From Bacteroidales bacterium (GTDB lineage: Bacteria > Bacteroidota > Bacteroidia > Bacteroidales > JAADJA01), in the NCBI GenBank assembly GCA_016783885.1, contig JADHVR010000028.1, positions 1 to 43,383 of the forward strand: a stretch of DNA of 43,383 nucleotides. Direction: 5' to 3'. Within the stretch, counting starts at the first letter, position 1. Every line of letters begins with the position of its first letter. Positions 7,129 to 35,504 of this stretch are shown in pieces. A program made the position numbers and the translations under genes. The notes under the pieces were generated by a model. It was not told the origin of the DNA. It saw nothing but the letters and a program-made list of their open reading frames with translations, and did no database searches.

Positions 7129-10100
7129 TTAATTCGGCACCTGTGAACTTGTACCTTCATTCGGTAACCAGAGATCATTTTTATCCTGGTTATTTGATTG
7201 AGTGTTTAAATTAAGGTCACCTCCAAGATAGCCGGACGCTCCTGCATCGGTTGACCATCCATTACCTTTATCATCAGCATTAATGGTTCCATCAGCGTTC
7301 ACATCGCCGGCAACCATACCCCATACATTAGTTTCAAGTTCAATATATCCTGCAGCGCCTCCATATACCTGTCCCGAGCCTGTTGAGAAATCATAAGTTT
7401 CAACAGTGCCATCAACCGGATTTAATCCTGTTGCATTCATAATGCCAAGATGGTTTCTGTGCCAGATAACGATAAATAAGTTATTACTGATTGTAAGGTT
7501 AACATTTAAAGGTGTTGAACCGTTCAGGCTGACTACTTTTCCATCTGCCATAAGATATGCCGGATATTGTGCGATCATAGTTCCGCTACCGGCTCCGGCG
7601 GCACTGCTTGCATCTCTTAATTCAATCAGAACCCAATCAACTGCATAGTAAGGTATATATGTTATAGTATCGATTCCTGAATATTGCCATACAGGATTGT
7701 TGTTTCCGTAATAAGGTAAAGCCGGATCGAAAGGCTGGTAGAAAGGCAATAATCCATCACTTCTAAGATCATTTCCCATGCTGTCGTTTACGGTGTTGTA
7801 CGGACCTTCGAGAAAGACTTTTAAATCGAGCTTAAAGCCTCCGGTCATTATCTGATCATATCCGTTTGAGCCGGGAGAACCTCTGTCGCCGGTATCACCT
7901 GTATAAGTTGATTCTCTGAAAGTAGCATAAGTCCATTTTGTTCCGTCATTATTATCTTCTGAAGGGAAACCTGTAAATGTCATTGATGTTCCTGTTGGAT
8001 CAGGCCAAACAGGACCGCCGTCATATTCAACCCTGTCAACTTCCGTAACTCCGTCAGGAAGAAGCAAAACTACTTCGTCATCACTATTACCTAACGTAAA
8101 TCCGGTATATTCATAATCACAGGTATATCCTCCATTCGTTGCAGGGTCTGCATCTCTGCCTAACACAGCGAATCCATAAGAGGGAACGATCAATGTTCCT
8201 GAAATAATATGACTGTCCGTACCATCATCTTTGATTGTCCATCCATCCATATCCACAGCACTTCCTGTATTATTAAACACTTCAAACCATTCACCATAAG
8301 TATCACTAACCGCAGCAGGATTTTGCATTATCTCCGTGATAATAATATCAGGAACAGAAAATTCAATAACATTAAAAGGATCGCTTGTCCCGGATGCTAA
8401 ACCGAAAAGATTATCATCATTCGCAGTAATGGTAACATTTGTTCCTGTAGGTGCCATTTGAACACCTGTAACTGTTACCTCACCGGTTCCGGCAGCTATG
8501 ATGCCTGTTGTTGTTGTTCCGCCAACAAATCCAACAGTTCCCAAATCACCGCCATTAGTAGTAAAAGTAAAATTAACATTTGATGTAACAAAAGCAGGGT
8601 CTCCTGCAGCATCCTGTGCTTGTACAATAACTTCAAAATCTACATTCTCATAAGGATGAACGCCCCCGTTTACACTAATTACTGCTAATTGAGTTGCAGG
8701 GTTTGAACTGCCTTCTATATCAAGTTGATTACGAGGATTTATTCTGTAATACGGACCGCTATAATTCCAGTCAATTACACCTGTTATAGACGGATAAGTA
8801 GCTCCGACAGAAAGCGTAATATTGTTTAAGTGATAATCAACATTATCACCAATGTTAAAAACATAGGTGGCTTTTGAGTCAGACCAGCTACCCCAATATG
8901 AATAGGTTCCGGCTGAATCAACAGTGAAATTTTCGATCTTTACCAATTGTCCTTCCCAGGGTTCTGCCGGGTCAGTATCAGCGCCTATCGTATATTCAAT
9001 ATCCGATCCATTGATTACAGATGGCCCGTAAGGAGTGTTGCCGGTTGTAATCTTAGTAATTAAACCCGGATTCACTAATTCAGAAAGGTTGTTATAGGGA
9101 CTTCTTTCAGCATAAAATAAAATTTCATCACCAACTGCAACTTCACCATAAAAACTATAATTATAGATTAAAATTCCATTATACTGCCCGGCAGCATCAC
9201 TTACCCAAACACTGTTATTATCATCATTAGCAGAAACAATTCCGTGGAAAGTAGCTGTGTAACCATCGCTCATAGTCCCTGTCGGGTTATTTGTATTAGT
9301 ATAATAGATGGGCATAATTCCGGCATAAAAATCAAAATCGGTTCCGTTACCATCATCAGCAATATTATCTAAAGTAATATCACCTACCATAGGAGGATTT
9401 GCACCTGACAAATGAACAATTTTAGCATCACTGCCATCAATAGTGGCTGAAGAAAAAACTGTGTACGCAGTTCCAGTAAGGTAGTAATCGCCAGGATCAA
9501 CGGTTGTAATATTTTTGTCATAAACTACATCCATAGCATCAGAGCTAATAGAATATGCATTTACAATAACAGGTGGTAAACCACTTAAATCTTCAAAAAC
9601 AGCATCATCAACATAAACTGTAGCGGTACCGGGCCATCCGGAAACATCGTATACTCGTATTTCCGCTGAAGCTTCTACAGCTAATGCAGGAGCCTGAACA
9701 CTTCCTGATGATAAAAGTTGCCATTCAGCCATATCTACTGAATACGGGTCAGCAACCGCTGGATAAACTTGCGAGCCTGTCGCATCCCACCATCTTAAGT
9801 ATATCCTTGCTCTTCCACCTGGATCATTGTCATAAACCCAAAAGGAAAACTCATAACTATTGCCTGCAGTTATAGGTATGTCAATTTGCTGCAAATAACG
9901 AGTGCTGGTTGTAGTCCAGGTAATCTTAGCAGAATAAGTTCCGCCATGAATTGTAGTTGCTTCTTGTTCTGCTGTCATACTTGTCCCGGATAATGACCAA
10001 TCATCCGGAGGACCTCCTGCGCCATTAACAGTCCAGTCTTCAAAACCCGGATTAGTCAGCATATTCTGTGCCTGGGCTGTCCGGTTGTTGGCAATAACAA

Positions 10101-10140
10101 AAACCACTGCCGTTAGTAAAAGTAAAATCGTTTTTTTCAT
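7129..10140 (-). CDS. Large secreted protein with lamin-tail domain and dockerin-like C-terminus
   Basis: The 1003-residue protein starts with a signal peptide (about 1-25, ending TAQAQ). A carbohydrate-binding-like jelly roll follows (26-185, NMLTNPGFEDW to VYVDDAVFEDL). Then come a Big/SwmB-like segment (about 187-275), an OB-fold/DUF5689-like region (about 280-475, YTATFHGIVSAND, NPRNQLDI), an Ig-like module (485-590) and a lamin-tail domain (597-725, DIIITEIMQNP, GEWFEVFNNTG). A Bacteroidota-typical C-terminal domain ends it (about 765-925, LKVFLEGPYN, VIWHRNHLG). The last 60 residues carry two Ca-loop-like motifs, GDVNADGTINADD and GDLNLNTQSNNQDKND, and end SSQVPN. No classical T9SS type A tail is visible. 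It is probably a surface-exposed or extracellular binding protein; no catalytic residues are identifiable. Confidence 0.85.
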   Translation of the reverse strand: MKKTILLLLTAVVFVIANNRTAQAQNMLTNPGFEDWTVNGAGGPPDDWSLSGTSMTAEQEATTIHGGTYSAKITWTTTSTRYLQQIDIPITAGNSYEFSFWVYDNDPGGRARIYLRWWDATGSQVYPAVADPYSVDMAEWQLLSSGSVQAPALAVEASAEIRVYDVSGWPGTATVYVDDAVFEDLSGLPPVIVNAYSISSDAMDVVYDKNITTVDPGDYYLTGTAYTVFSSATIDGSDAKIVHLSGANPPMVGDITLDNIADDGNGTDFDFYAGIMPIYYTNTNNPTGTMSDGYTATFHGIVSANDDNNSVWVSDAAGQYNGILIYNYSFYGEVAVGDEILFYAERSPYNNLSELVNPGLITKITTGNTPYGPSVINGSDIEYTIGADTDPAEPWEGQLVKIENFTVDSAGTYSYWGSWSDSKATYVFNIGDNVDYHLNNITLSVGATYPSITGVIDWNYSGPYYRINPRNQLDIEGSSNPATQLAVISVNGGVHPYENVDFEVIVQAQDAAGDPAFVTSNVNFTFTTNGGDLGTVGFVGGTTTTGIIAAGTGEVTVTGVQMAPTGTNVTITANDDNLFGLASGTSDPFNVIEFSVPDIIITEIMQNPAAVSDTYGEWFEVFNNTGSAVDMDGWTIKDDGTDSHIISGTLIVPSYGFAVLGRDADPATNGGYTCDYEYTGFTLGNSDDEVVLLLPDGVTEVDRVEYDGGPVWPDPTGTSMTFTGFPSEDNNDGTKWTYATFRESTYTGDTGDRGSPGSNGYDQIMTGGFKLDLKVFLEGPYNTVNDSMGNDLRSDGLLPFYQPFDPALPYYGNNNPVWQYSGIDTITYIPYYAVDWVLIELRDASSAAGAGSGTMIAQYPAYLMADGKVVSLNGSTPLNVNLTISNNLFIVIWHRNHLGIMNATGLNPVDGTVETYDFSTGSGQVYGGAAGYIELETNVWGMVAGDVNADGTINADDKGNGWSTDAGASGYLGGDLNLNTQSNNQDKNDLWLPNEGTSSQVPN

Positions 10141-13664: not shown

Positions 13665-14429
13665 TTAACGGTATAAGCCGTCAGGATCTACCTGTTGCCT
13701 CAATATCCTGAGTTCTTCCGGTGTCGGAGGCTTGTTGGCTGTGATCTCATCTGCCATCAAAAGTTCAAAACCGGTATTTTCAATCACGTTTTCCATGCTG
13801 ACTCCGGGATTTAGACTGAGCAGTTTCATACGCTTTGTATGATCATCATAACCCATCACACATAGATTGGTTACCACACGGTATGGTCCCGTGTTAGCCG
13901 GAAGACCAGCCTCCTCCCTTGCACCAGGACCTGACAAATATCCGGGTGTTGTAATAAAATCAATTTTTTCTATAAAGCGTCTCTTGTCATGACGCATGAT
14001 AGCGATAGTACGCCAACAGCATGAGCCAACATCGTTGGCGCCTCCGCTGCCGGGCAGTCTTACTTTTGGGTTTTTATGATCACCGATGACAGTGGAGTTT
14101 AGGTTCCCATAACAATCGATCTGTGCTCCGCCCAGGAAACCAAATTCCACAAAGCCCCTTTGTGCGGTTTCCATAATATCGCAGATACCTGAGGCTGCGA
14201 TCGCTTTGTTGTATGTTCGCATATCTCCCACGGCAAGGGGAAGTTTTTCCAGTATGGCACCTGTTCCTCCGAATTCAAATATCGGAATAAGGTTCGGAGC
14301 GTGCATATTTTGTGCAAGGCTGGCAGCAAGCATAGGTATTCCTGTTCCGATAAATGCTGTCGTCCCGTCTTCCATCACCCTGGAAGCCAGGCATATTAAT
14401 AATTCTGAAGGTGAATATTGATTTGTCAT
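13665..14429 (-). CDS. CoA-transferase subunit B (glutaconate CoA-transferase-like)
   Basis: This 254-residue cytoplasmic protein is the beta subunit of a class I CoA-transferase. A glycine-rich start (AFIGTGIPMLAA) is followed by IFEFGGTGAI, where E52 occupies the position expected for the catalytic Glu (compare E(N/x)GxxG in class I enzymes). LPGSGGANDVGS and a GFLGGAQIDCYGN block match GctB/IpdB-like subunits. Its start overlaps the stop of the upstream alpha-subunit gene by 4 bp (ATGA), giving translational coupling. Substrate is not certain: glutaconate, another dicarboxylate, or a ring-cleavage acyl-CoA as in IpdAB are all possible. Confidence 0.88.
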   Translation of the reverse strand: MTNQYSPSELLICLASRVMEDGTTAFIGTGIPMLAASLAQNMHAPNLIPIFEFGGTGAILEKLPLAVGDMRTYNKAIAASGICDIMETAQRGFVEFGFLGGAQIDCYGNLNSTVIGDHKNPKVRLPGSGGANDVGSCCWRTIAIMRHDKRRFIEKIDFITTPGYLSGPGAREEAGLPANTGPYRVVTNLCVMGYDDHTKRMKLLSLNPGVSMENVIENTGFELLMADEITANKPPTPEELRILRQQVDPDGLYR

Positions 14430-15418
14430 AGTAATACTTCCTTTAATGAGATTTCTTTTAAACGTTGTGTGCCGATTTTTTCTATAAGAGATTTATGGTC
14501 GGGAATGTCAAGCACCCATTCCTTCATATACTCATCTGTCGCATCCGGGGACTGTTGCTTTTCAATAAACATCTTGTAGTGTGTTTCATCACGTTCATAA
14601 AGCCCGTTCATTTCTCCTGGCCAGGAGCCGTAAGGAGCATGAACCACAGCATCAACAAGGTAATAAGGTATAATGGTTCTGTCGGGGTGTTCCCTGATCT
14701 CCTCTGTTTTAACGATCTGTTCCGTACTGATTATAAGATGTTTGCAAGCCCGTGCCATTTCAAATGCAAAACCACTAATACCGTCGATCTGGCAATTGCC
14801 ATGAATGTCGGCACGGTTTACATGTATAAATCCTACATCAAGCACTAAGGCAGGCAACAATGCAACTTTCTTCCCTGTAAAGGGACACTCAATTACTTTC
14901 GCAGAGGATTTCCGGAGTGTATCTGTGCCTAACATGCATCGCGTAGGGACAAAAGGAACTCCCATGCTTGCCGCTTTAAACCTCCAGGTGAGGCAGGCGT
15001 TCGACCATTCAACGATATTCGTAACAGAGCCGGATTCGACCCTGCGCCTGAGAAGTTGAGAAACACCATATACCTCAAGCCCGATATAAGTGAAATCAAT
15101 CTCCCTGACCATATCCCTGGCAAATAAAAGATCAAGTTCATAAACTCCCTGTCCGGCAACCCGGAAATCTTTTTTCCCTGACCTGACCAAAGCTCTTGTC
15201 AGGCTGACCGGACAACGTACTGTGCCATAAAGTTCAAATCCAAGGTAATCTCCATCTTTGACAAATCTATCAATAGCTTCTTCCTCAGTCATTGTTTTGT
15301 TAATAAGAGATTTGGATTTATGCCTGTTGTGCTCGCGAAAACTATCCAGGTCAACCGGTTGGATCAATGGAGCTTCGCCTTCAAAAACAATTGGGATACA
15401 CTTTGAATTTTTATTCAT
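14426..15418 (-). CDS. CoA-transferase subunit A (glutaconate CoA-transferase-like)
   Basis: This 330-residue alpha subunit is encoded directly upstream of, and overlapping, the beta subunit. The recognisable core starts near residue 42 (MTEEEAIDRFVKDGDYLGF) and includes HVNRADIHGN and the CKHLIISTEQIV segment characteristic of GctA/IpdA-like proteins. About 40 residues precede the core, a longer N-terminus than typical GctA. The two subunits would move CoA between acyl-CoA and a free carboxylate, as in glutamate or other amino-acid fermentation. A TAGTTTTG element (minus strand 15463-15456) about 38 nt upstream of the ATG fits the -10 pattern, with no obvious -33. Confidence 0.88.
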   Translation of the reverse strand: MNKNSKCIPIVFEGEAPLIQPVDLDSFREHNRHKSKSLINKTMTEEEAIDRFVKDGDYLGFELYGTVRCPVSLTRALVRSGKKDFRVAGQGVYELDLLFARDMVREIDFTYIGLEVYGVSQLLRRRVESGSVTNIVEWSNACLTWRFKAASMGVPFVPTRCMLGTDTLRKSSAKVIECPFTGKKVALLPALVLDVGFIHVNRADIHGNCQIDGISGFAFEMARACKHLIISTEQIVKTEEIREHPDRTIIPYYLVDAVVHAPYGSWPGEMNGLYERDETHYKMFIEKQQSPDATDEYMKEWVLDIPDHKSLIEKIGTQRLKEISLKEVLL

Positions 15419-15840: not shown

Positions 15841-17718
15841 CTAAACTTCCTTATAACACCTTACCCAGTCAATCTCCATTGAAGCTGGCAAACTGCTGCC
15901 GTCAACCTTTCCGGTAATTGATGAACTGAAAACAAGATACATTTCCTCCTGCGGAATTCCCTGAGTTTGTTCATTTACAACCACATCATTTATTTTCCAG
16001 GTAAGTTTGTTTTTTTGCCATTCAAGGGTGTAAATAAAATAATCCTGAGAAACGTCAAGCCCTGAAAACTCTGCTTTCACTGTATCCGGCCCTTTTTTAT
16101 CAGTAATATTTCCTGTATGGTGTGCCATGTCGATTTTCGATTTTTTCTTTTTCAGTTTTAGAATATCGACGTGAGGAAGGTTTTTTTCGGAAGTCATCCA
16201 AAAATTATAGTTTACCGGCTTGGCATAGTTTACTTTTATTTTTGCCTCGATCTTTCCGTATTTCTGACGATGATGTTTTGCAGTGCTCACTAAACCGGTT
16301 GTATAATCAAAATCATGTGGTATAAAACCAAAGGGTTGCTTCCACACTTTTCCGTTTGTTTTTTCTTTCCTGGTAACGATTTTCAGGATGTTGTTTGAAA
16401 TCTCGATGTTTTTGCCGTCAGTAGGGAATGCCGTGTCGGTTTCGAGCGCATAAGCATCATTTATCAGTTTGTCGCCCCAGAAATAGCGTGTCATCCATTT
16501 TTCTTTATTTAATTTGTCAGAGTCAAAATTATCTTCAAAAGCTATTTCCCACTTTTTCAACTCATCAAATTTATCGGAATCCTTGAGTTCAAGATACCAT
16601 TTATATTTTTTAGAGTTTTTAAATTCTTCGTATTGCTTTTTCTTATCGTTCTCCGTCTTCTCTTTTTTTTCTAAAGATATTAACAATTCTTTATGCTCAT
16701 CAGATGCAAGGTATTTCTCCAATTCAAGATAATCAGCCAATTCTTTTGATTTTTCAAAAGTCCGGAAATCTTTGAACTTTTGTGAATTTTGGAACTTATA
16801 GAAATCTTTAAATTGTTTTGATTTTTTCTTTTGCCCGTAGTCTTTAAGTTTGGCATTTATTTCGTTCAACTCCTTTTCTGCCTTAATTTTCTTTTCTTTA
16901 AACTCGTCGGAATTGATGTAATCCTGGAGCTTATAAAAATCTTTCAATCCTTCCGACTTTTCAAACTCAAGATAACTTTTATATTTGGCTGATTCCCCGA
17001 ACTTATAGTAGAACTTAATATTCCTGGATTTCTTCAGGTTTTTATATTCCTGCTGCTTTCTGCCTTCTTCCGTGTTTTTAAATTCCTTTGGATCAGCAGC
17101 ATTTTCCTTTTGCTTGAATTCGTCTGAATTAATGAACTTTTCAAGCTCTTCAAACTCCTTTAATTCTTTTGATCCGACAATACTATTGAATTCTTTCAGC
17201 TTTGCCGAGTCTTTGAATTTGAAATATGTTTTAAAGGATTTGGACTTCTTCTGACCATTGTACTCCTTTTCTTTTTGGTCTTCTACTGCTTTTTGCTCTT
17301 CCAAAGACTTTTTATTGCTTGCGAACTCATTGGAAGTTACAAGATTTTCAAGCTCTTCGTAATCTTTTAATTCTTTTGATTCGACAAAATCATTATAATT
17401 CTTCATCTTTTGCGATTCTTTAAACCTGAAATAGTCTTTGAACTTTTTGGATTTCTTCTGGCTTTCGTACCTGTTTTTCTTTTCCTGTTCTCCTTTTTTT
17501 CCTGTCTCGATGGAACTCATCAGGTTTGAATGTTCTTTTGAACTCAGGTATTTTTCAAGTACATAGAAATCTTTTAACTCCTGCGAATTTTCAAAAGCAA
17601 TAAAATCCTCATGTTCTTTTGCCAGGTTTGCCCTGTCCTGTTCAATTTTTGATGTTTTAGGAATTGAACTGAATTTTGAAAAAATGAAATACTTGTTTCC
17701 AAATGTTATGTTACCCAT
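15841..17718 (-). CDS. Five charged ~69-aa repeats fused to a GH16-like pseudoenzyme domain
   Basis: The 625-residue protein has no signal peptide or lipobox. Residues 45-390 form five repeats starting at S45, S114, S183, S255 and S324 (69, 69, 72, 69 and ~67 residues). Each reads roughly S-x-E-L-K-D-F/Y-x-x-L-E-K-x-[hydrophobic]-x-S-x-E, then a Lys/Glu-rich helix, KKSKxFKxYF(K)F, and a SxKxKxF segment. Residues ~392-625 look like a GH16/concanavalin-A-type lectin fold: FEDNFDSDKLNKEKW start, GKIEAKIKV, NFWM, and a MEIDWVRCY end typical of GH16. The GH16 active-site motif ExDxxE is replaced by HVDILK (H516, D518, K521), so both catalytic glutamates are missing. It may be an intracellular binding or scaffold protein. 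Function is unknown. Confidence 0.8.
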   Translation of the reverse strand: MGNITFGNKYFIFSKFSSIPKTSKIEQDRANLAKEHEDFIAFENSQELKDFYVLEKYLSSKEHSNLMSSIETGKKGEQEKKNRYESQKKSKKFKDYFRFKESQKMKNYNDFVESKELKDYEELENLVTSNEFASNKKSLEEQKAVEDQKEKEYNGQKKSKSFKTYFKFKDSAKLKEFNSIVGSKELKEFEELEKFINSDEFKQKENAADPKEFKNTEEGRKQQEYKNLKKSRNIKFYYKFGESAKYKSYLEFEKSEGLKDFYKLQDYINSDEFKEKKIKAEKELNEINAKLKDYGQKKKSKQFKDFYKFQNSQKFKDFRTFEKSKELADYLELEKYLASDEHKELLISLEKKEKTENDKKKQYEEFKNSKKYKWYLELKDSDKFDELKKWEIAFEDNFDSDKLNKEKWMTRYFWGDKLINDAYALETDTAFPTDGKNIEISNNILKIVTRKEKTNGKVWKQPFGFIPHDFDYTTGLVSTAKHHRQKYGKIEAKIKVNYAKPVNYNFWMTSEKNLPHVDILKLKKKKSKIDMAHHTGNITDKKGPDTVKAEFSGLDVSQDYFIYTLEWQKNKLTWKINDVVVNEQTQGIPQEEMYLVFSSSITGKVDGSSLPASMEIDWVRCYKEV

Positions 17719-17938: not shown

Positions 17939-17970
17939 TTTGTTTCTTTTGTATTATATAATTAATTTTG
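17939..17970 (+). promoter_or_regulatory. Bacteroidota-type promoter of the TonB receptor operon
   Basis: TTTG (17939-17942), a 20-nt spacer and TAATTTTG (17963-17970) match TTTG-N19/20-TANNTTTG at every defined base. Transcription would start near 17977. This excludes the in-frame ATG at 17968 as the translation start and supports the ATG at 17995. Confidence 0.65.
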
Positions 17971-17994
17971 GAAACCAATTATAGTACACAAACC

Positions 17995-20349
17995 ATGAAA
18001 ACACTTGTGATTGTTTTAATCACATCTTTAATAATGCTGTTGCCTCATAAGGTTGTTAAAGCTGAAGGTGATGATGTAAAAACCAAATATACCATCAGCG
18101 GACATATAAGTGACAAGGAAACCGGCGAAGACCTGATTGGCGCTACGGTTTTTATTAAAGAATTAAAAACCGGCACCAGCTCCAATGTATATGGTTTTTA
18201 TTCAATAAGTCTTGAGCCGGGAACTTACACTCTGATATTTTCATATATCGGCTATGAATCGCATAAAAATTTTTTTGACCTTAACAGCGACATCACTTAT
18301 AATGTTGATATTGCCGTTAAAAAGCAGGAGCTTGACGAAGTGGTAATAACAGGAACTGCACTGAACGAGAATATTACACGAGCCGAGATGAGCACCATTA
18401 AAATGGATGTAAAAACCATCAGGCAGATACCGGCATTGATGGGTGAGGTGGACATAATCAAAGCCATTCAGCTATTGCCGGGGGTTCAGACCATTGCCGA
18501 AGGCAGTTCGGGGTTTAGTGTCAGAGGTGGAAGCATGGATCAAAACCTTATCCAGTTGGATGAATCAACCGTTTACAACGCCTCTCATCTTATGGGTTTC
18601 TTTTCGGTGTTCAATAACGATGCAATAAAGGATGTAAAACTTTATAAAGGCGATATTCCCGCATCTTCTGGCGGTCGCCTGTCATCATTACTTGATGTAA
18701 GGATGAAGGACGGAAACTTAAAGAAAATATCAGGGACAGGCGGAATAGGCACCATTGCAAGCAGACTGACCCTTGAAGGCCCAATTGTAAAAGATAAAGT
18801 TTCTTTTATTGTTTCAGGAAGAAGAACCTACGCCGATATTTTCCTCAAATTATTCGGAAATGCTGATGTGAGGGATAACAGAATCTATTTCTATGATCTT
18901 AATGCTAAAGTGAATTATAAAATAAATGAAAACAACAGGGTTTTTGTTTCGGCATATTACGGCAAAGATATTTTTAAGAATCCTGATTTCAAGATTGGAT
19001 GGGGCAATCAAACATTTACTACCCGGTGGAATCATCTTTTCTCGAAAAAATTATTTTCTAACTTTACGTTTGTTTACAGCAAATTCGACTATGAGTTGGG
19101 TGTACCCGAAGGACAAGCCAATTCTTTCAGTTGGATATCTAATTTGAAGGATTATGGCTGTAAGGCTGATTTTAGTTATTATTTGAATACAAACAACACA
19201 ATAAAATTTGGAACGAGCGTAATTTATCACAATTTTATACCGGGCACAGCAAAAGGTCTTGGAGAGGAAGCTTTTGCTACCGAATATAAAGTTCAGGACA
19301 ATAATGCAATTGAATCAGGTATCTATGTGAGTAATGAACAAAAAATAGGATCGAGGTTAACATTGAAATATGGTTTAAGGTTTTCATACTTCCAGAATGT
19401 AGGTGAGGCTACTATATACAATTTTGATGAAAACTACGAGGTAATTGATTCAACGGTTTATAACAAAGGTGTGTTTTTTTGTCCCTATTACGGGTTTGAA
19501 CCAAGGGTGGGAGCTACATTCGTTTTAAACGAGGTTTCATCTGTAAAAGCAAGTTATGCCATGACAAGGCAGTACATTCATTTAGCCCAGAACTCCACAG
19601 CAGGAACACCGCTCGATATTTGGTTTCCTTCCTCACCTAATGTGAAGCCACAGATAGCCGACCAGGTTGCTCTTGGATATTTCAGGAATTTTAAGGGAAG
19701 TAAAATCGAAGCCTCTGTGGAAGCCTATTATAAATACATCAATAATGCTATTGATTTTAAGGATCATGCAGAATTGTTGCTTAACCAGCATTTTGAAGGA
19801 GAGCTAAGGTTCGGAACAGCATGGGCTTACGGACTGGAATTCATGGTTAACTATCACATAAAAAAGGTTTCAGGATGGGTTAGCTATACTTTATCGAAAA
19901 CCGAAAGAAAGATAAACGGAATAAATGATGGGAATAAGTATCCGGCAACTTATGACAAACCAAATGATGTTTCTATTGTATTTAATTATGATGTAAGCAA
20001 AAGGTTATCAATCGGGGCAACATGGGTTTATTCCACAGGCTCTGCCGTTACTTTCCCTGCCGGCAAATTTCTTTACGGAAATAAGTATGTGCCAATTTTT
20101 AGTGAAAGGAACGGTTACAGAATGCCCGATTATCACAGGCTCGACCTGTCAGTTACCTTGCGAAGTAAAGATAAGCCCGGCAGAAAATGGTCGTATGATT
20201 GGAATTTTTCGGCTTATAATGCATATAACAGGAAAAATCCCTGGGTCATAAATTTTAAGCAGGATCCCGACAATCCAGATGTAACTTATGCCGAAATGAT
20301 TTACCTGTTCGGCATTGTACCTGCTATTACATTTAATTTTAAATTCTAA
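17995..20349 (+). CDS. TonB-dependent outer-membrane receptor with carboxypeptidase-regulatory-like N-domain
   Basis: The start at 17995 gives a 784-residue protein with a clean signal peptide (MKTLVIVLITSLIMLLPHKV...A). An upstream in-frame ATG at 17968 lies within the promoter and is rejected. Order of domains: CarboxypepD_reg-like beta-sandwich (about 32-115, ISGHISDKETGEDLIGATV), TonB-box-like ELDEVVITG (about 117-125), plug (about 130-235, LPGVQTIAEGSSGFSVRGG) and a 22-strand barrel to the end (final TFNFKF). It is smaller than SusC proteins (about 1000) and paired with a DUF4249-type lipoprotein rather than SusD. Substrate is unknown; peptides or a metal complex are possible. The downstream lipoprotein gene starts 5 bp after its stop. 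Confidence 0.92.
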   Translation: MKTLVIVLITSLIMLLPHKVVKAEGDDVKTKYTISGHISDKETGEDLIGATVFIKELKTGTSSNVYGFYSISLEPGTYTLIFSYIGYESHKNFFDLNSDITYNVDIAVKKQELDEVVITGTALNENITRAEMSTIKMDVKTIRQIPALMGEVDIIKAIQLLPGVQTIAEGSSGFSVRGGSMDQNLIQLDESTVYNASHLMGFFSVFNNDAIKDVKLYKGDIPASSGGRLSSLLDVRMKDGNLKKISGTGGIGTIASRLTLEGPIVKDKVSFIVSGRRTYADIFLKLFGNADVRDNRIYFYDLNAKVNYKINENNRVFVSAYYGKDIFKNPDFKIGWGNQTFTTRWNHLFSKKLFSNFTFVYSKFDYELGVPEGQANSFSWISNLKDYGCKADFSYYLNTNNTIKFGTSVIYHNFIPGTAKGLGEEAFATEYKVQDNNAIESGIYVSNEQKIGSRLTLKYGLRFSYFQNVGEATIYNFDENYEVIDSTVYNKGVFFCPYYGFEPRVGATFVLNEVSSVKASYAMTRQYIHLAQNSTAGTPLDIWFPSSPNVKPQIADQVALGYFRNFKGSKIEASVEAYYKYINNAIDFKDHAELLLNQHFEGELRFGTAWAYGLEFMVNYHIKKVSGWVSYTLSKTERKINGINDGNKYPATYDKPNDVSIVFNYDVSKRLSIGATWVYSTGSAVTFPAGKFLYGNKYVPIFSERNGYRMPDYHRLDLSVTLRSKDKPGRKWSYDWNFSAYNAYNRKNPWVINFKQDPDNPDVTYAEMIYLFGIVPAITFNFKF

Positions 20350-20354
20350 AAAAA

Positions 20355-21197
20355 ATGACAAAAAACTTATTAATTCTTCTACTTAGTACAATGCTTATGG
20401 CAGGCTGTACCGAAAGAATTGACATTGATTTGGGAACTACTTATACACGGCTTGCTGTTGAGGGTCATATTACAACCGATACAACCACTCACTGGGTCAG
20501 ATTGTCCAAATCGACCGATTATTATAGCAACACTCCTCCACCGCCTGTTAGTAATGCCGTAGTTACGGTTAACGACGGGTTTGAAACATTTACACTTAAC
20601 GAAAACGATACTCTGCCCGGATATTATGAAACACTACCTGATTATTATGGAATACCCGGCAGAACGTATTCATTGGAGATAGAATTGCAGGAGGAGATAC
20701 ATGGATATAAGTCTTACTCTGCTTCTTGCGAACTCAAACCGGTTGCACCGATTGATTCCATAAAGGTGGAATATATTGAGAAATGGGAAGCCTGGGATGT
20801 AAAAATTTATGCATGGGAACCTCCGAGCGTTGATTTTTATACATTTAATATTATTAAAAATGGCGTTCTGATTACCGATACGATAGATGAAATAGGAATA
20901 TCGGACGATCGTTTCTTTAATAGTAATTATACCAATGGGGCGACTGTATATTATCTGATGGAGGAAAATCCTGACGAAGTTGTTAATCCAGGCGATACCA
21001 TCACTCTAATAATGGGAGGTGTAACAAAAGAGTATTACAACTTTATTGTTGAACTGATGGATGAAACTTTTGAATACAGGAATCCTTTGTTCAGCGGACC
21101 TCCGGCAAATGTCAGCACCAATATTTCGAATGGGGCTGTTGGTTTTTTTACGGCTTATTCTAATACTTATTCGAGTACGGTGTACCAAGGTCCCTGA
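20355..21197 (+). CDS. DUF4249-type lipoprotein partner of the TonB receptor
   Basis: The 280-residue protein has a lipoprotein signal with lipobox LMAGC, acylated at C18. ERIDIDLG after the Cys and RLAVEGHITTD are typical of DUF4249 lipoproteins, which in Bacteroidota are encoded right after a TonB receptor of this type. It begins 5 bp after the receptor stop, in the same operon, and lacks a convincing Shine-Dalgarno. It probably sits on the outer membrane next to the receptor and helps capture the ligand. It is slightly shorter than many family members, but the frame ends cleanly. Confidence 0.85.
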   Translation: MTKNLLILLLSTMLMAGCTERIDIDLGTTYTRLAVEGHITTDTTTHWVRLSKSTDYYSNTPPPPVSNAVVTVNDGFETFTLNENDTLPGYYETLPDYYGIPGRTYSLEIELQEEIHGYKSYSASCELKPVAPIDSIKVEYIEKWEAWDVKIYAWEPPSVDFYTFNIIKNGVLITDTIDEIGISDDRFFNSNYTNGATVYYLMEENPDEVVNPGDTITLIMGGVTKEYYNFIVELMDETFEYRNPLFSGPPANVSTNISNGAVGFFTAYSNTYSSTVYQGP

Positions 21198-25622: not shown

Positions 25623-25703
25623 TTATTGCTTGCTACAAATCACAATAAATTCTTTCGATTCAGCATCGAGTTCATTTTCCTCAAAATCTCCAAAAATATT
25701 TAC
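25623..25703 (-). pseudogene. Possible 3' remnant of a SAM-dependent methyltransferase gene
   Basis: Directly after and overlapping the C10 peptidase stop codon, another frame of the minus strand reads 26 residues to a TAA at 25625-25623: IFGDFEENELDAES then KEFIVICSKQ. This pattern (GDF/Y, D-x-x-S, FIVxCxK at the end) resembles the last beta strands of class I methyltransferases. No start or body is present. The match is short, so this is tentative. Confidence 0.35.
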
Positions 25704-27208
25704 CGGATGATAAATTTTTTAGTTTCTGACATATCATTGACCCGTAAGCGACAGAAATAAATCCCATCTTTTATTTTAGAAGCACCAGAGCAATTTAAGT
25801 TCCAGGTATATTTGCAAATTCCATCATCCATATCGTCGTTAACCAGGGTTTGAACCAATAGCCCAGTTATATTAAATATTTCTATTACTACATTAGCAGG
25901 TTCATCAAGAGAGTAATTTATTTCAGCATAATTTTTTACCGGGTTTGGAGAAATCTCAAGAGAAAAATCAACAATATCCAACTTGTTCTTCAGTATGGTT
26001 GTATAAACCGGTGGGTAAGCAATATTTACGATCGCCCCTTCTATAACAGTTAATCCATAAGGAATTTCATCAGGCAAAAGATACCAGCCATTATAGCTTC
26101 CACCCCATCCAAAATTCAAATGATAATAGTCATCAGTATTATATCCGTCAATAACCACATTATGGCCCATTGTTCCCGGAGGGTCAACCACAGCAAGGTG
26201 TACAGGGCGGGCATCCATCATATTTTGCGATAAATAAGTATAAAGAGCAGTATCATTTTCATCTAATAGCAAAGCATCTTCAAAACTGAATTTCATATAA
26301 GCATCATAAGCCTGGCTTACTCCAAAAGTTCCTGATATGCTCGAAGTATAAACCTGATGTGCAGCTACTCCACAAGCAAAAGTCAAAGCTGCTTTTTCAT
26401 CAGGCTTTAACGTTGTATGATTTATATAACAATTTGTCAGGGTGTCGAGATGTGCATTAAGAGTTGGGAAAGACGGGAAATCAAGATCTTCAAAATCATC
26501 ATCAATCCAGTAATTTCTTCCGGCATAAGCATGGTAATAATCGTCATCATCAGTAAAATATGTATCATTTATTGTTTCGTAATAATTTACGATCATAGCC
26601 ATTGCAACTGCAGGGCATCCGGCTACACTCCTTATATTAGTTACCGGGTCCATCGGGCAAAAATTATTGTAAGGCGAACTTTGCGTCCAGTTTGATTCCA
26701 GCCAACCGCCTGTTGATGTGGTTCCTTCAGGTGGCCATTGCTGAAACAGGTCCGAAGATTTTTTAATTATTTCTTCATTAAGAAGGCCTTGCCAATCATT
26801 GTTTCTTTGCTGTATAATTTTATCAGGCAAATTGTCTATATTTTTTAGCCTCAACTTAATATCAGAAATAAGCAACTTAATAAGAATGTTTTCCTGCGAA
26901 CCAGTCAATTGATAATCGTTTTCAAATGAATAAGCAATAACCGGAGGCAGGTCGGTATCGCCTGTTACAACTATATATCCTGATGGATTTAACTCAAAAA
27001 TATAGAACAGGGCTTTTCCCTCTTTATTGTAATAAATATTCTTATCGTTTTTAATAGATAAAATACCTGCTTTACTAAGTTCGAACAATTTTTGATGCGC
27101 CGCCTTTCGAGCGGTTTGAAAATCAACGGCATCAGCATAAGCTGAAAAACCGGTTAAAAAATTTGTGATAATAAAAATTAATCCGAATAAAAATACTTTT
27201 TGTTTCAT
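25700..27208 (-). CDS. C10-family (streptopain-like) cysteine peptidase with T9SS sorting domain
   Basis: The 502-residue protein starts with a signal peptide (about 1-26). An N-terminal propeptide-like domain follows (about 28-150, ending before TSTGGWLESNW). The mature C10 peptidase contains the catalytic Cys C198 (SVAGCPAVAMA) and His H349 (MGHNVVIDGYN), plus the conserved FGWGGSYNGWY. Residues about 416-502 are a Por-secretion type A sorting domain (LEISPNPV start, DGIYFCRL, KKFIIR end). It is therefore exported by the T9SS to the surface or medium and degrades proteins, like Porphyromonas PrtT or streptococcal SpeB. TATTTTTG (minus strand 27248-27241) is a -10-type match 33 nt upstream of the ATG. 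Confidence 0.93.
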   Translation of the reverse strand: MKQKVFLFGLIFIITNFLTGFSAYADAVDFQTARKAAHQKLFELSKAGILSIKNDKNIYYNKEGKALFYIFELNPSGYIVVTGDTDLPPVIAYSFENDYQLTGSQENILIKLLISDIKLRLKNIDNLPDKIIQQRNNDWQGLLNEEIIKKSSDLFQQWPPEGTTSTGGWLESNWTQSSPYNNFCPMDPVTNIRSVAGCPAVAMAMIVNYYETINDTYFTDDDDYYHAYAGRNYWIDDDFEDLDFPSFPTLNAHLDTLTNCYINHTTLKPDEKAALTFACGVAAHQVYTSSISGTFGVSQAYDAYMKFSFEDALLLDENDTALYTYLSQNMMDARPVHLAVVDPPGTMGHNVVIDGYNTDDYYHLNFGWGGSYNGWYLLPDEIPYGLTVIEGAIVNIAYPPVYTTILKNKLDIVDFSLEISPNPVKNYAEINYSLDEPANVVIEIFNITGLLVQTLVNDDMDDGICKYTWNLNCSGASKIKDGIYFCRLRVNDMSETKKFIIR

Positions 27209-31910: not shown

Positions 31911-34900
31911 TTATTTCTTTGCCAGAAATTTATTTACCTTCGCCAGCAGCTTATCCCCATCGTAAGGTTTGGCAATGTAATCATCACATCCTGCCTCCTG
32001 ACATTTTTCCATCTCCTCTACCATAGCAAAAGCGGTTTGAGCAATAACAGGTATGTCTTTATTCAGCTTTTTAATCTCTCTTGTTGCATCATATCCGTTC
32101 ATGCCCGGTATTTTAATATCCATTAATACGAGGTCGATTTTATCGGGTGATTTACGGCATATTTCAACAGCAGAAATACCGTCAGCAGCCCCGATAATAT
32201 TTACGTTATGAGGTTTAAGGTAATTTTCAATCAGTAAATAGTTAATATATTCGTCTTCCACCAGAAGGATATTCTTTCCTTCCCAATTATAATCAATCTC
32301 TTTGGCTTCGATGTCTTCGTCAAACTTCAGACCCTTTTCAACACTTTTATAAGATATGGCAAAGAAGAATGTCGAGCCTTTTCCTAATTCCGACTCTACC
32401 CATATTTTGCCTCCGAGAAGCTCGGTCAGTTTTATAGAAATCGCCAAACCTAAGCCTGTACCATCTTTGTTATTAGTGTATGACTCTTCAACCTGGAAGA
32501 ATCTGTCAAAAATGATCTCCTGTTTGTCTTTAGGGATACCGATTCCGCTGTCTTTAACAAAAAACAGTAATTTATCCGATGATTCAATGCTATATCCAAA
32601 CTCAATAAATCCCGAGTCGGTAAATTTAAGAGCATTTCCAATCAGGTTCGATAAAACTTGTTGCAACCGGTATGGATCGGTAATAATTGTGAAATTCTTA
32701 TCAGGCGTACCTCTTTTAATCTTTAAAATTATATCCTTTTCTTTTTTGTTAATTTCTTCATAGAAAGTCGTAAATATTTCTGCCATCAGACTGTTTAACC
32801 TTAATTCTTCTTTTTTAATTCTTATTTGACCGGCTTCAATTTTTGATATATCAATAATGTCATTAATAAGATTAAGCAGGTTTTTTCCACTCATAACGAT
32901 ATGATCGAGATATTTATCTTTATCAATATTATCTGTAGCACCCTCTTTTAAAAGATCAGCGAAACCGATAATTGAACTCACCGGTGTCCGTATCTCATGC
33001 GACATATTTGCAAGAAAAGCTGTTTTAAGCCTATCAGCCTGTTCCGCTTTTTCCTGTGCTATTTTACGTTCTTTGGCTTCCTGTTGCAATTCAAGGGTTT
33101 TTTCATTTACCAACCGCTCCAGCTTTTCTTTTTGCACTTTGATATTTCTGATCCTAAACATAATAAATATATAAATAAGGCTTATTATAAGAAAAAAACC
33201 TAAAATCCTGAACCACCAGGTTTGCCAAAACGCGGGTTGAATTGTAAATGAAAAACTTACCGGTTTATCATTCCAGAAACCATCATTATTGCAGGCTCTG
33301 ACTTTAAGGATATAATCGCCCGGAGGAATATTTGTGTATGGGGCAATCGTTGATTGAGTCAGCGGGTTCCAATCAGTATCAAAGTTTTCAAGTTTATACT
33401 GATACCAGACTTTATCAGGCGCCGTCAGGCTGACTCCAATATATCCAAATGTCAGATGGTTTTTGTTATAAGGTAAAACCATGCCGGCAGGTAAAAGAGT
33501 TTCCGGATGAATCGAATCTGAATAACTGTTGTAATCAAAATCATTGAAGAATAATTTTATATTTTCAATCGTCGTAACCGGAGGAATTGTATTCAAATGA
33601 TCTTTGGCAGGATCGAACCTGACTACTCCGTTCATGGTTCCAAACCACAAAATTCCATCACGACTTTTACAAATAGCATTCTGATTACTTTCAATACCAA
33701 TGAAACCGTCTGCTTTATCGTAATGTTTAAAAATTTCGGTAACCGGATCAAATTTATCTATTCCCGAATTTGTTCCAATCCATACATAATCCAAATCATC
33801 GCATATAATGGTGTATGGACTATCTGAACTAAGGCCATCTTCTAAACTGTAATTAGTAAATTGCGTGCCGTCAAATTTAAAGATACCGCTAATAGTTGCG
33901 ATCCATAAATTATTTCTGCTGTCGTGTGTAATGGCACCGGCGCTCAGGCTTGTCAGCCCGTCTTTTTCGTTATAAGTTGTGAAGCTTTTACCGTCGTATT
34001 TTGTTAAACCTGCATTATCACTGCCAAACCAGAGGTTTCTTTGTCTGTCTTTATGAATTGTCCAGATAATATTACTGCAAAGCCCGTCTTCAACAGTATA
34101 AGTCTCAAATTTTTCAGGGGTTCCCTTATCAGGATATGTATATTTTGAAACACCGATTCCCAAAGTAGCAAACCACACATTTCCTTCTTTATCTTCATTA
34201 ATAGTAAGTACGGAATTGGTGATCAAGCCATCGTCAGTTGTAAAAGTCCTGAATTTCTCCGATCGCGGATCATATCTCATTAAACCCCCATCAAGATAAT
34301 AACCCATCCAGATATTACCCCGGGAGTCTTCGAAAAGTACATCAACCGAATTGCTCAATAAACCATTTTGGGTTGTAAAATGCCGGTATTTTTTTCCGTC
34401 GAATTTACTAACTCCTTTTTCGGTAGAAATCCAAATATTTCCTTCGTTATCCTCAATAACGGAATTAACTACATTATCAATTAATCCGGACTGTATATCA
34501 AAAATTAAAAATTTATCTCCTGAGTATTTATACATACCCGAATTCATAGATCCTATCCAGATATTACCTTCATAATCCTGCATCATTGTATTAATCTGAT
34601 CATTAAACAATCCGGTTTTCGGTGTATAAAATTTAAAAACTTTATCCTTCAGTTGAAAGATTCCATAATCACCTGTACCCCAAATTGTGCCTGCTTTATC
34701 ACAAATTATAATATGAAGGAAGTTTAGTTGTATATTTCCGTTAAAAGGAAAATAATCAACTTTTTTGAAAGCCGGATGTTTTTTTCTATGCACCTCAGCC
34801 AATCCGTCATAACCCAACAACCAAATCACAGAATCATTATCCTGTGTAATAGAAAGGACATCTTGAAAAGGTAAACGATTGTTTTCAGTATTAAATTCGG

Positions 34901-35504
34901 ATATTTCCGGTTGCTGCAAATTATTGCCGAATTTAATGATTTTAATACCGTCATCAGTTCCTGCCCATAGTTCGCCGGTATCTTCTATAAAGATGTCATA
35001 TATTTTTGACTTTGTTGAATCAGAATGAGTGGATAACTGAATAAAATTTTCAGCTTTTACCTCTTTATCCACTGGAAGAATAAAAATTCCATCCCCGTTT
35101 GTACCGATCCAGATATTTCCGTTCAAATCCTCCCTGATCACATTAATCCTTTCTTTGGTCAGTTGGATATGTAAAATATCTTTTCCGTGCATAAGCGATA
35201 AACCTTTGTACCTGTGACCAAACCAATATCTTCTTTTTTTATCCTGTGAAATAGCAGTAATATAATTCCCGCCCAATCCATGCCTTGTATCAAAGGTTGT
35301 AAATGTTTTTCCGTTGTATTTACAAACACCCCCCTGCGTACCTATCCAGATATTGCCATTATGATCCTGGTAAAGAGATATTACGCTCGATTGTGGAAGG
35401 CCTTCTTCTAATGAATAGTTGATAAAGATGTTGCGATGTGCCGAAGAAGAAAGTATAAGCACAGAAAAAGCTATTGTAAGATATATTTTAAAATCCTTGG
35501 ACAT
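31911..35504 (-). CDS. Hybrid histidine kinase with Reg_prop propellers and C-terminal receiver
   Basis: The 1197-residue inner-membrane sensor has a signal/anchor segment (about 8-22). Its periplasmic part (25-640) has about 14 Reg_prop repeats with the GNIWIGT signature (e.g. 50-56, 129-135, 314-318, 356-359), forming two propellers. A Y_Y_Y domain follows (about 690-755, WYQYKLENFD), then a membrane helix (about 763-783) and a coiled coil (785-825). The kinase part has HisKA with H836 (NMSHEIRTP) and HATPase_c with N957 and GTGLGL (1015-1020). The receiver (1077-1197) has phosphoacceptor D1129 and K1179. There is no AraC-type DNA-binding domain, unlike classical HTCS regulators. It therefore needs a separate output protein. 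The orphan receiver at 6577-7047 is not adjacent and any link is only speculative. Confidence 0.94.
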   Translation of the reverse strand: MSKDFKIYLTIAFSVLILSSSAHRNIFINYSLEEGLPQSSVISLYQDHNGNIWIGTQGGVCKYNGKTFTTFDTRHGLGGNYITAISQDKKRRYWFGHRYKGLSLMHGKDILHIQLTKERINVIREDLNGNIWIGTNGDGIFILPVDKEVKAENFIQLSTHSDSTKSKIYDIFIEDTGELWAGTDDGIKIIKFGNNLQQPEISEFNTENNRLPFQDVLSITQDNDSVIWLLGYDGLAEVHRKKHPAFKKVDYFPFNGNIQLNFLHIIICDKAGTIWGTGDYGIFQLKDKVFKFYTPKTGLFNDQINTMMQDYEGNIWIGSMNSGMYKYSGDKFLIFDIQSGLIDNVVNSVIEDNEGNIWISTEKGVSKFDGKKYRHFTTQNGLLSNSVDVLFEDSRGNIWMGYYLDGGLMRYDPRSEKFRTFTTDDGLITNSVLTINEDKEGNVWFATLGIGVSKYTYPDKGTPEKFETYTVEDGLCSNIIWTIHKDRQRNLWFGSDNAGLTKYDGKSFTTYNEKDGLTSLSAGAITHDSRNNLWIATISGIFKFDGTQFTNYSLEDGLSSDSPYTIICDDLDYVWIGTNSGIDKFDPVTEIFKHYDKADGFIGIESNQNAICKSRDGILWFGTMNGVVRFDPAKDHLNTIPPVTTIENIKLFFNDFDYNSYSDSIHPETLLPAGMVLPYNKNHLTFGYIGVSLTAPDKVWYQYKLENFDTDWNPLTQSTIAPYTNIPPGDYILKVRACNNDGFWNDKPVSFSFTIQPAFWQTWWFRILGFFLIISLIYIFIMFRIRNIKVQKEKLERLVNEKTLELQQEAKERKIAQEKAEQADRLKTAFLANMSHEIRTPVSSIIGFADLLKEGATDNIDKDKYLDHIVMSGKNLLNLINDIIDISKIEAGQIRIKKEELRLNSLMAEIFTTFYEEINKKEKDIILKIKRGTPDKNFTIITDPYRLQQVLSNLIGNALKFTDSGFIEFGYSIESSDKLLFFVKDSGIGIPKDKQEIIFDRFFQVEESYTNNKDGTGLGLAISIKLTELLGGKIWVESELGKGSTFFFAISYKSVEKGLKFDEDIEAKEIDYNWEGKNILLVEDEYINYLLIENYLKPHNVNIIGAADGISAVEICRKSPDKIDLVLMDIKIPGMNGYDATREIKKLNKDIPVIAQTAFAMVEEMEKCQEAGCDDYIAKPYDGDKLLAKVNKFLAKK

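Follow-up and report, generated by a model that had tools for sequence, protein, structure and literature searches.

A GH16-type jelly roll with a replaced catalytic motif behind a helical repeat array in Bacteroidales

Background

The locus raises the question of what role is left to a protein whose glycoside hydrolase domain has lost its catalytic residues. The product of the gene ends in a GH16-type domain in which the active-site motif ExDxxE, starting at residue 516, reads HVDILK. The gene lies in the window, which is the whole stretch of 43,383 nucleotides analysed here. Its strand and length are as an earlier note on this DNA had given them, a minus-strand reading frame of 625 residues. 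The protein is composed of an N-terminal segment, an array of 69-residue helical repeats and a GH16 jelly roll, in that order:

15841..17718, minus strand: whole coding sequence, 625 amino acids and stop (open reading frame listing; homologues)
17656..17718, minus strand: residues 1-21, N-terminal segment leading into P20-x-T22-x-x-x-E26 (conservation, pLDDT, hydropathy)
17467..17655, minus strand: residues 22-84, first and shorter repeat unit (repeat-profile match 34-81, 35.4 bits)
17260..17466, minus strand: residues 85-153, repeat unit (profile match 86-151, 70.2 bits)
17044..17259, minus strand: residues 154-225, repeat unit of 72 amino acids (profile match 156-221, 73.0 bits)
16837..17043, minus strand: residues 226-294, repeat unit (profile match 227-292, 60.5 bits)
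16630..16836, minus strand: residues 295-363, repeat unit (profile match 297-361, 65.6 bits)
16552..16629, minus strand: residues 364-389, capping part-unit between array and jelly roll (match 361-387, 13.4 bits)
15844..16551, minus strand: residues 390-625, GH16-type jelly roll (PF00722 match, modelled strands from 390, Foldseek)
16156..16173, minus strand: residues 516-521, HVDILK in place of ExDxxE (motif position, structure alignment, homologue counts)

Fold of the protein

The whole protein was modelled with AlphaFold2 from an alignment of 48 sequences (mean pLDDT 89.4, pTM 0.58). Residues 22-389 are mostly helical in the model and residues 390-625 form a strand-rich jelly roll; given the pTM, the placement of the rod relative to the jelly roll is unsure.

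Pfam identifies Glyco_hydro_16 (PF00722) at residues 436-619 (E 4.8e-13, 49.4 bits against a cut-off of 22), and a second Pfam domain was not found in the window protein. Two NCBIfam glucanase models stay far under their cut-offs (49.7 against 700 bits and 28.8 against 300). The nearest solved structures by sequence are GH16 enzymes (phmmer; 4crq, 1.1e-08). When the whole model is compared with the PDB by Foldseek, laminarinases and carrageenases rank first (best 3azx, E 1.1e-17), with TM scores by target length of 0.66-0.80 in the top ten. The GH16 fold proposed in the earlier note is thus recovered by structure prediction and structure search, residues 390-625 being a jelly roll with laminarinases as best matches. 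The domain belongs to GH16 by fold and by sequence, but it lacks the two catalytic Glu in ExDxxE or ExDxE that mark active GH16 enzymes.

Homologues and distribution

The homologue set was assembled from 80 of the 325 matches of the contig search, the window protein, L003-L028 and 28 of L143-L171, leaving out L152 as an ordinary GH16. These 135 sequences gave 112 members after removal of those with identical last 230 residues. Two of the 112, L020 with a short C terminus and L027 with a frame broken after the motif, are outside alignment A1. Member lengths are 324-905 residues, some sequences being cut by contig ends. Pfam finds GH16 in three of the four full-length homologues scanned and misses it in L062.

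Some match to the protein was found in 33 of 60 genomes, its own included, and 26 of these 33, again including its own, hold the kind with repeats and GH16. Six others have weak-scoring matches to the GH16 part, and G002 has a weak repeat stretch with two stops. In a sample of the order, 104 of 393 genomes and 59 of 206 genera match the profile at 1e-25; among the 104, G612 holds an ordinary secreted GH16 (L152) and G755 has a similar E-value and the same family code. The gene is therefore patchy, a match being absent from roughly three in four genomes sampled within the order. The sample of the phylum gave matches in 130 of 395 genomes at 1e-10, but those listed, the window's own genome aside, reach at most 80.4 bits and begin no earlier than profile position 227, around the GH16 part. 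Cultured holders include Ancylomarina, Marinifilum, Carboxylicivirga, Anaerophaga and Thermophagus. Frames have no internal stops in nearly all family matches listed and are broken in a few copies (G058, G504 and G723).

The protein family is absent from every library searched and is held by part of one order, Bacteroidales. The architecture was named nowhere among the results of a literature search, the scope of which excluded subscription journals and preprints, so that this is no proof of its being unpublished.

A mobile or viral origin was considered and rejected. A pattern scan of viral contigs found no relative, and the model of the array found nothing at E 0.001 among viral models. Plasmid records with a match number 29; coverage stays under 80% of the query in every one, and the 20 listed span residues 380-624 only.

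Five metagenome-assembly records titled Atribacteria, Bacteroides fragilis or Chlorobiota (L045, L088, L035, L048 and L057) sit among Bacteroidales members in the tree, and their titles may be wrong.

The catalytic motif

The assignment of H516, D518 and K521 in the earlier note is correct by position. The query stretch PHVDILK aligns in phmmer onto the motif stretch of 4crq, an entry titled ZgLamC mutant E142S, and this alignment places K521 at the acid/base position. Glu at both catalytic positions was found in none of the 112 distinct homologues. The loss of the catalytic pair is accordingly not a mutation of one copy of an ordinary ExDxxE gene, which would have shown the motif in its homologues, and is a trait of the family.

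Position 516, that of the nucleophile, is H in 61 members, Q in 26, E in 19 and another residue in six. Position 518 is D in 98, N in five and another in nine, while position 521, that of the acid/base, is K in 60, R in 38 and another in 14. Position 521 is thus basic in 98 of 112 members, and position 516 is split. The commonest triplets at 516, 518 and 521 are H-D-K (32), H-D-R (24), E-D-K (15) and Q-D-R (12). Because Glu516 is found in 19 members and a basic 521 is missing in 14, the altered cleft is not uniform; in L160 and L161 it is position 521 that carries Glu, position 516 being Arg or Gln. None of the 112 homologues has Glu at 520 or 522, and so the acid/base is not hidden by a shifted bulge.

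Around the motif P515 is kept in 109 of 112 members and the two positions after 521 vary freely. Elsewhere in the domain F394, F398, W408, W459 and G464 are invariant in all 112, and the family-specific R484 and Q485 are present in 102 and 101.

Six GH16 domains from the order were used as comparators, five of which read E-I-D-x-x-E and one E-F-D-L-E. The last is the second GH16 of the window's own genome (L002, G000 contig C22:64075-64464), a frame of 269 residues that has a hydrophobic stretch in its N-terminal region and sits on a long branch of the tree.

Phylogeny and selection

The tree took 85 of 111 members with sufficient domain length, and a single branch separates all 85 from 35 motif-bearing GH16 domains (SH-aLRT 90, short of the 95 at which the tool gives a star). 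It was made by a quick method and rooted at the midpoint, so that the root is not inferred, and some end branches are long. The 35 comparators were picked by a regular expression matching anywhere in the domain, and a chance match is possible. The topology would fit one catalytic loss at the base of the family, and the Glu516 of the 19 members may have been kept or regained. Traced on this tree, position 521 switches residue 23 times and switches between basic and not basic 11 times; the changes number 40 at 522, 48 at 523, 19 at 516 and 11 at 518.

The dN/dS ratio was counted only at dS below 1, in pairs of near relatives some of which share a sequence. It is 0.039-0.119 for the GH16 part (7 of 18 pairs) and 0.070-0.149 for the repeat part (8 of 18). 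Nine more distant pairs have dS of 1.6-4.7 and gave a GH16 value from four and a repeat value from one. The family is under purifying selection. The basic replacement has been kept, charge being the likely constraint.

The helical repeat array

The self-similarity of residues 31-390 peaks at a lag of 69 (mean BLOSUM62 score 1.38), while the highest value at lags 60-79 in 300 shuffled controls is 0.195. A sub-period of 12 residues is present within the repeat. Lys makes up 23% and Glu 16% of these residues, and the KS landmarks are spaced 69, 72, 69 and 69. The five Lys- and Glu-rich repeats described earlier are real, but they consist of one shorter N-terminal unit and four full ones, after which a short cap follows. 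The cap residue W374 is present in at least 90% of 43 sequences.

The helical character proposed for the array is borne out by the models. Modelled alone, the array has a mean pLDDT of 91.5 and a pTM of 0.64, most ten-residue blocks being at 95-98. Each full unit is built from a long helix (about 28 residues) and three short ones (about 10, 10 and 13 residues), and Ser is found where they break; the long helix is itself interrupted in one of the units, around residues 199-229. In the region of the first unit the modelled helices are 22-43, 46-58 and the start of 61-89.

The array sequence had no match in Pfam or among PDB sequences at E 1, and none of the PDB folds was a significant Foldseek match to its model (best E 0.18). 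A search of 12 genomes with the repeat profile gave 23 matches, every one of them within this one gene. The number of units per member varies from 0 to 9. The window protein has 5, the shorter first unit being counted and the cap excluded, L062 and L171 have nine, and none was detected in L156 and L158; the rod is therefore not needed everywhere.

N terminus and location

The residues P20, T22 and E26 are each present in at least 90% of 48 sequences. The preceding residues 1-20 have pLDDT blocks of 37-61, and the median net charge of the first 20 residues is +2 among the 112 members. The window frame can be extended upstream by only 11 codons, and the Kyte-Doolittle mean of 15-residue stretches near the start exceeds 1.65 in none of the 112 members. 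For at least four of these (L024, L038, L058 and L061) the record does not contain an N terminus beginning with Met. By the frame limit and by hydropathy, used here in place of a trained predictor, no signal peptide is visible, as the earlier note had stated; an unusual export route stays compatible with this. Since a signal peptide is not visible, the protein is most likely inside the cell, perhaps with membrane contact.

Comparison with known systems

The window family has the jelly roll in common with the GH16 laminarinases and kappa-carrageenases 3azx, 4dfs, 4crq and 5ocq (E 1.1e-17 to 6e-16, TM scores by target length of 0.66-0.77, 20-22% identity). Those proteins are catalytic with ExDxxE, 4crq being an engineered mutant, whereas the window family has no catalytic pair and no visible signal peptide and carries the helical array in addition.

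The coiled-coil arms of Rad50, Smc5/6 and MukB, which form long helical rods, rank first in the PDB when the repeat model is searched by itself. The likeness is non-significant, with TM scores by query length of at most 0.27 in the best 50 listed, and the unit of one long and three short helices differs from such arms. Neither by fold nor by sequence does the array match a coiled coil of the SMC/Rad50 type significantly.

The noncatalytic relatives of GH16_4 include the beta-1,3-glucan recognition proteins, or GNBPs, of invertebrates, immune proteins that act outside the cell in animals and carry a glucan-binding domain at the N terminus. They and the window protein alike have a GH16 jelly roll in which the catalytic residues are missing. 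Unlike them, the window family is bacterial and has a helical array and a basic residue at the acid/base position; secretion is not indicated by hydropathy, and a glucan-binding domain was not found by Pfam in the repeat part at E 1. The GH16_4-related binding proteins are the closest precedent for non-catalytic GH16 folds, and membership is not claimed. PMC6827312 describes "homologous noncatalytic binding proteins" of GH16_4 and gives the loss of one or both catalytic residues as about 9% of GH16_4, 0.7% of GH16_3 and 1% of the others.

Gene neighbourhood

The genes around 80 loci and the window were clustered. Among these 81 loci no operon partner is conserved across lineages and no sugar-pathway neighbour recurs across lineages. 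Of 77 loci, 54 have an upstream gene that shares the orientation of the family gene, and the downstream gene is convergent in 49 of 73. The window's own group has a CoA-transferase gene within the fetched flank (cluster 20, 7 of 81 loci), and other loci have outer-membrane, TonB, peptidase, transporter or kinase genes nearby.

Histidine kinases, response regulators and a SiaC-family gene are found upstream in several lineages. The kinase and regulator were rejected as one conserved partner because identity between lineages is low, 28-32% for the regulators and 22-40% for the kinases, with a few pairs at 43-48%. The SiaC-family gene lies about 30 bases upstream of the family gene in L074:208-594, L084:8859-9239 and L086:5590-5979, and in the latter two it is preceded by a kinase and a response regulator.

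Possible functions

Judged from the sequences, the protein is probably a non-cutting one. The reading given the most weight, with the balance of belief about level, is that of an intracellular, GH16-derived pseudoenzyme on a helical rod of 0 to 9 units, a binding protein or tether and not an enzyme. The old cleft would still bind a ligand, now one with a negative charge near Lys/Arg521; candidates are sugars that are acidic or phosphorylated, and intermediates in which a sugar is linked to a lipid. The rod would set the distance between the jelly roll and the target of the conserved N-terminal motif, so that the protein would act as a tether or adaptor rather than as an enzyme. A more specific version is rather unlikely, namely that many lineages of the order retain an intracellular sensor or tether in which the cutting fold has turned into a receptor for an anionic sugar, with Lys/Arg for the acid/base Glu and an adjustable helical ruler whose repeat fold has no known relative. 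A precursor at the membrane's inner face, phosphorylated or linked to a lipid, could for instance be its ligand.

A pure protein-protein module is possible, if on the whole doubtful. The cleft would then no longer bind sugar, and the protein would be a structural scaffold with protein contacts made by rod and jelly roll alike, perhaps at the membrane by way of the N-terminal segment. The lack of a sugar-related neighbour recurring across lineages, the wide variation in repeat number and charge and the weak, non-significant likeness of the rod to the Rad50, Smc5/6 and MukB arms agree with this. The conservation of the former active-site strand (P515, D518 and the basic 521) is not obviously needed by a plain scaffold.

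Alginate lyases of PL7, which have a jelly roll as well, rely on Gln, His and Arg. New chemistry in the cleft, for example of lyase or transferase type through His/Gln516, Asp518 and Lys/Arg521, would agree with a replacement that was kept rather than decayed and with the family-specific R484 and Q485. It is nevertheless improbable, since position 516 is split among His, Gln and Glu and no single new catalytic residue is therefore kept there.

That the charged repeats bind nucleic acid, with the jelly roll as a passenger, is very improbable. With a pI of 9.1 and a net charge of about +13, the stretch of residues 1-390 is basic in the window protein. Across the 112 members the repeat part has a median net charge of +8.5, and 99 of them are positive there. 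This charge ranges from -24 to +46, however, being negative in eight and zero in five, and the longest member, L171, is the most acidic. The role in nucleic-acid binding suggested in the earlier note is weakened because this charge is not conserved.

Decay of an ordinary secreted glucanase gene, drifting after loss of its signal peptide and active site, would account for the missing catalytic pair and visible signal peptide and for the broken frames in three genomes, but is scarcely credible given the spread over 59 of 206 genera, the dN/dS of 0.04-0.15 where dS is below 1 in the pairs measured, the scarcity of internal stops among the family matches listed and the retention of the basic replacement.

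Pfam labels proteins of this kind GH16, and surveys of GH16 genes would therefore misread a probable non-cutter as a polysaccharide degrader. With Glu, Gln or His at one catalytic position and Lys or Arg at the other, the family is a natural series for the study of how an enzyme cleft turns into something else. It also provides a helical repeat that has no Pfam or PDB match.

Other genes in the window

Two CoA-transferase subunits adjoin the gene (13665-15418, minus strand), and their relatives are near it in the other loci of the group. Genes resembling acyl-CoA synthetases and fatty-acid kinases are found upstream in these CoA-transferase loci. On the other side, divergent from the gene with the GH16 fold, a TonB-dependent-receptor-like gene is followed by a DUF4249 gene (17968-21197, plus strand). 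The region 25700-27208 (minus strand) encodes a C10-type cysteine peptidase that carries an inhibitor prodomain as well as a type IX secretion tail, and 31911-35504 (minus strand) a hybrid two-component regulator with propeller repeats, a histidine kinase and receiver domains. A protein of 1003 residues with a lamin-tail domain and a CBM_4_9 domain is encoded at 7129-10140 (minus strand).
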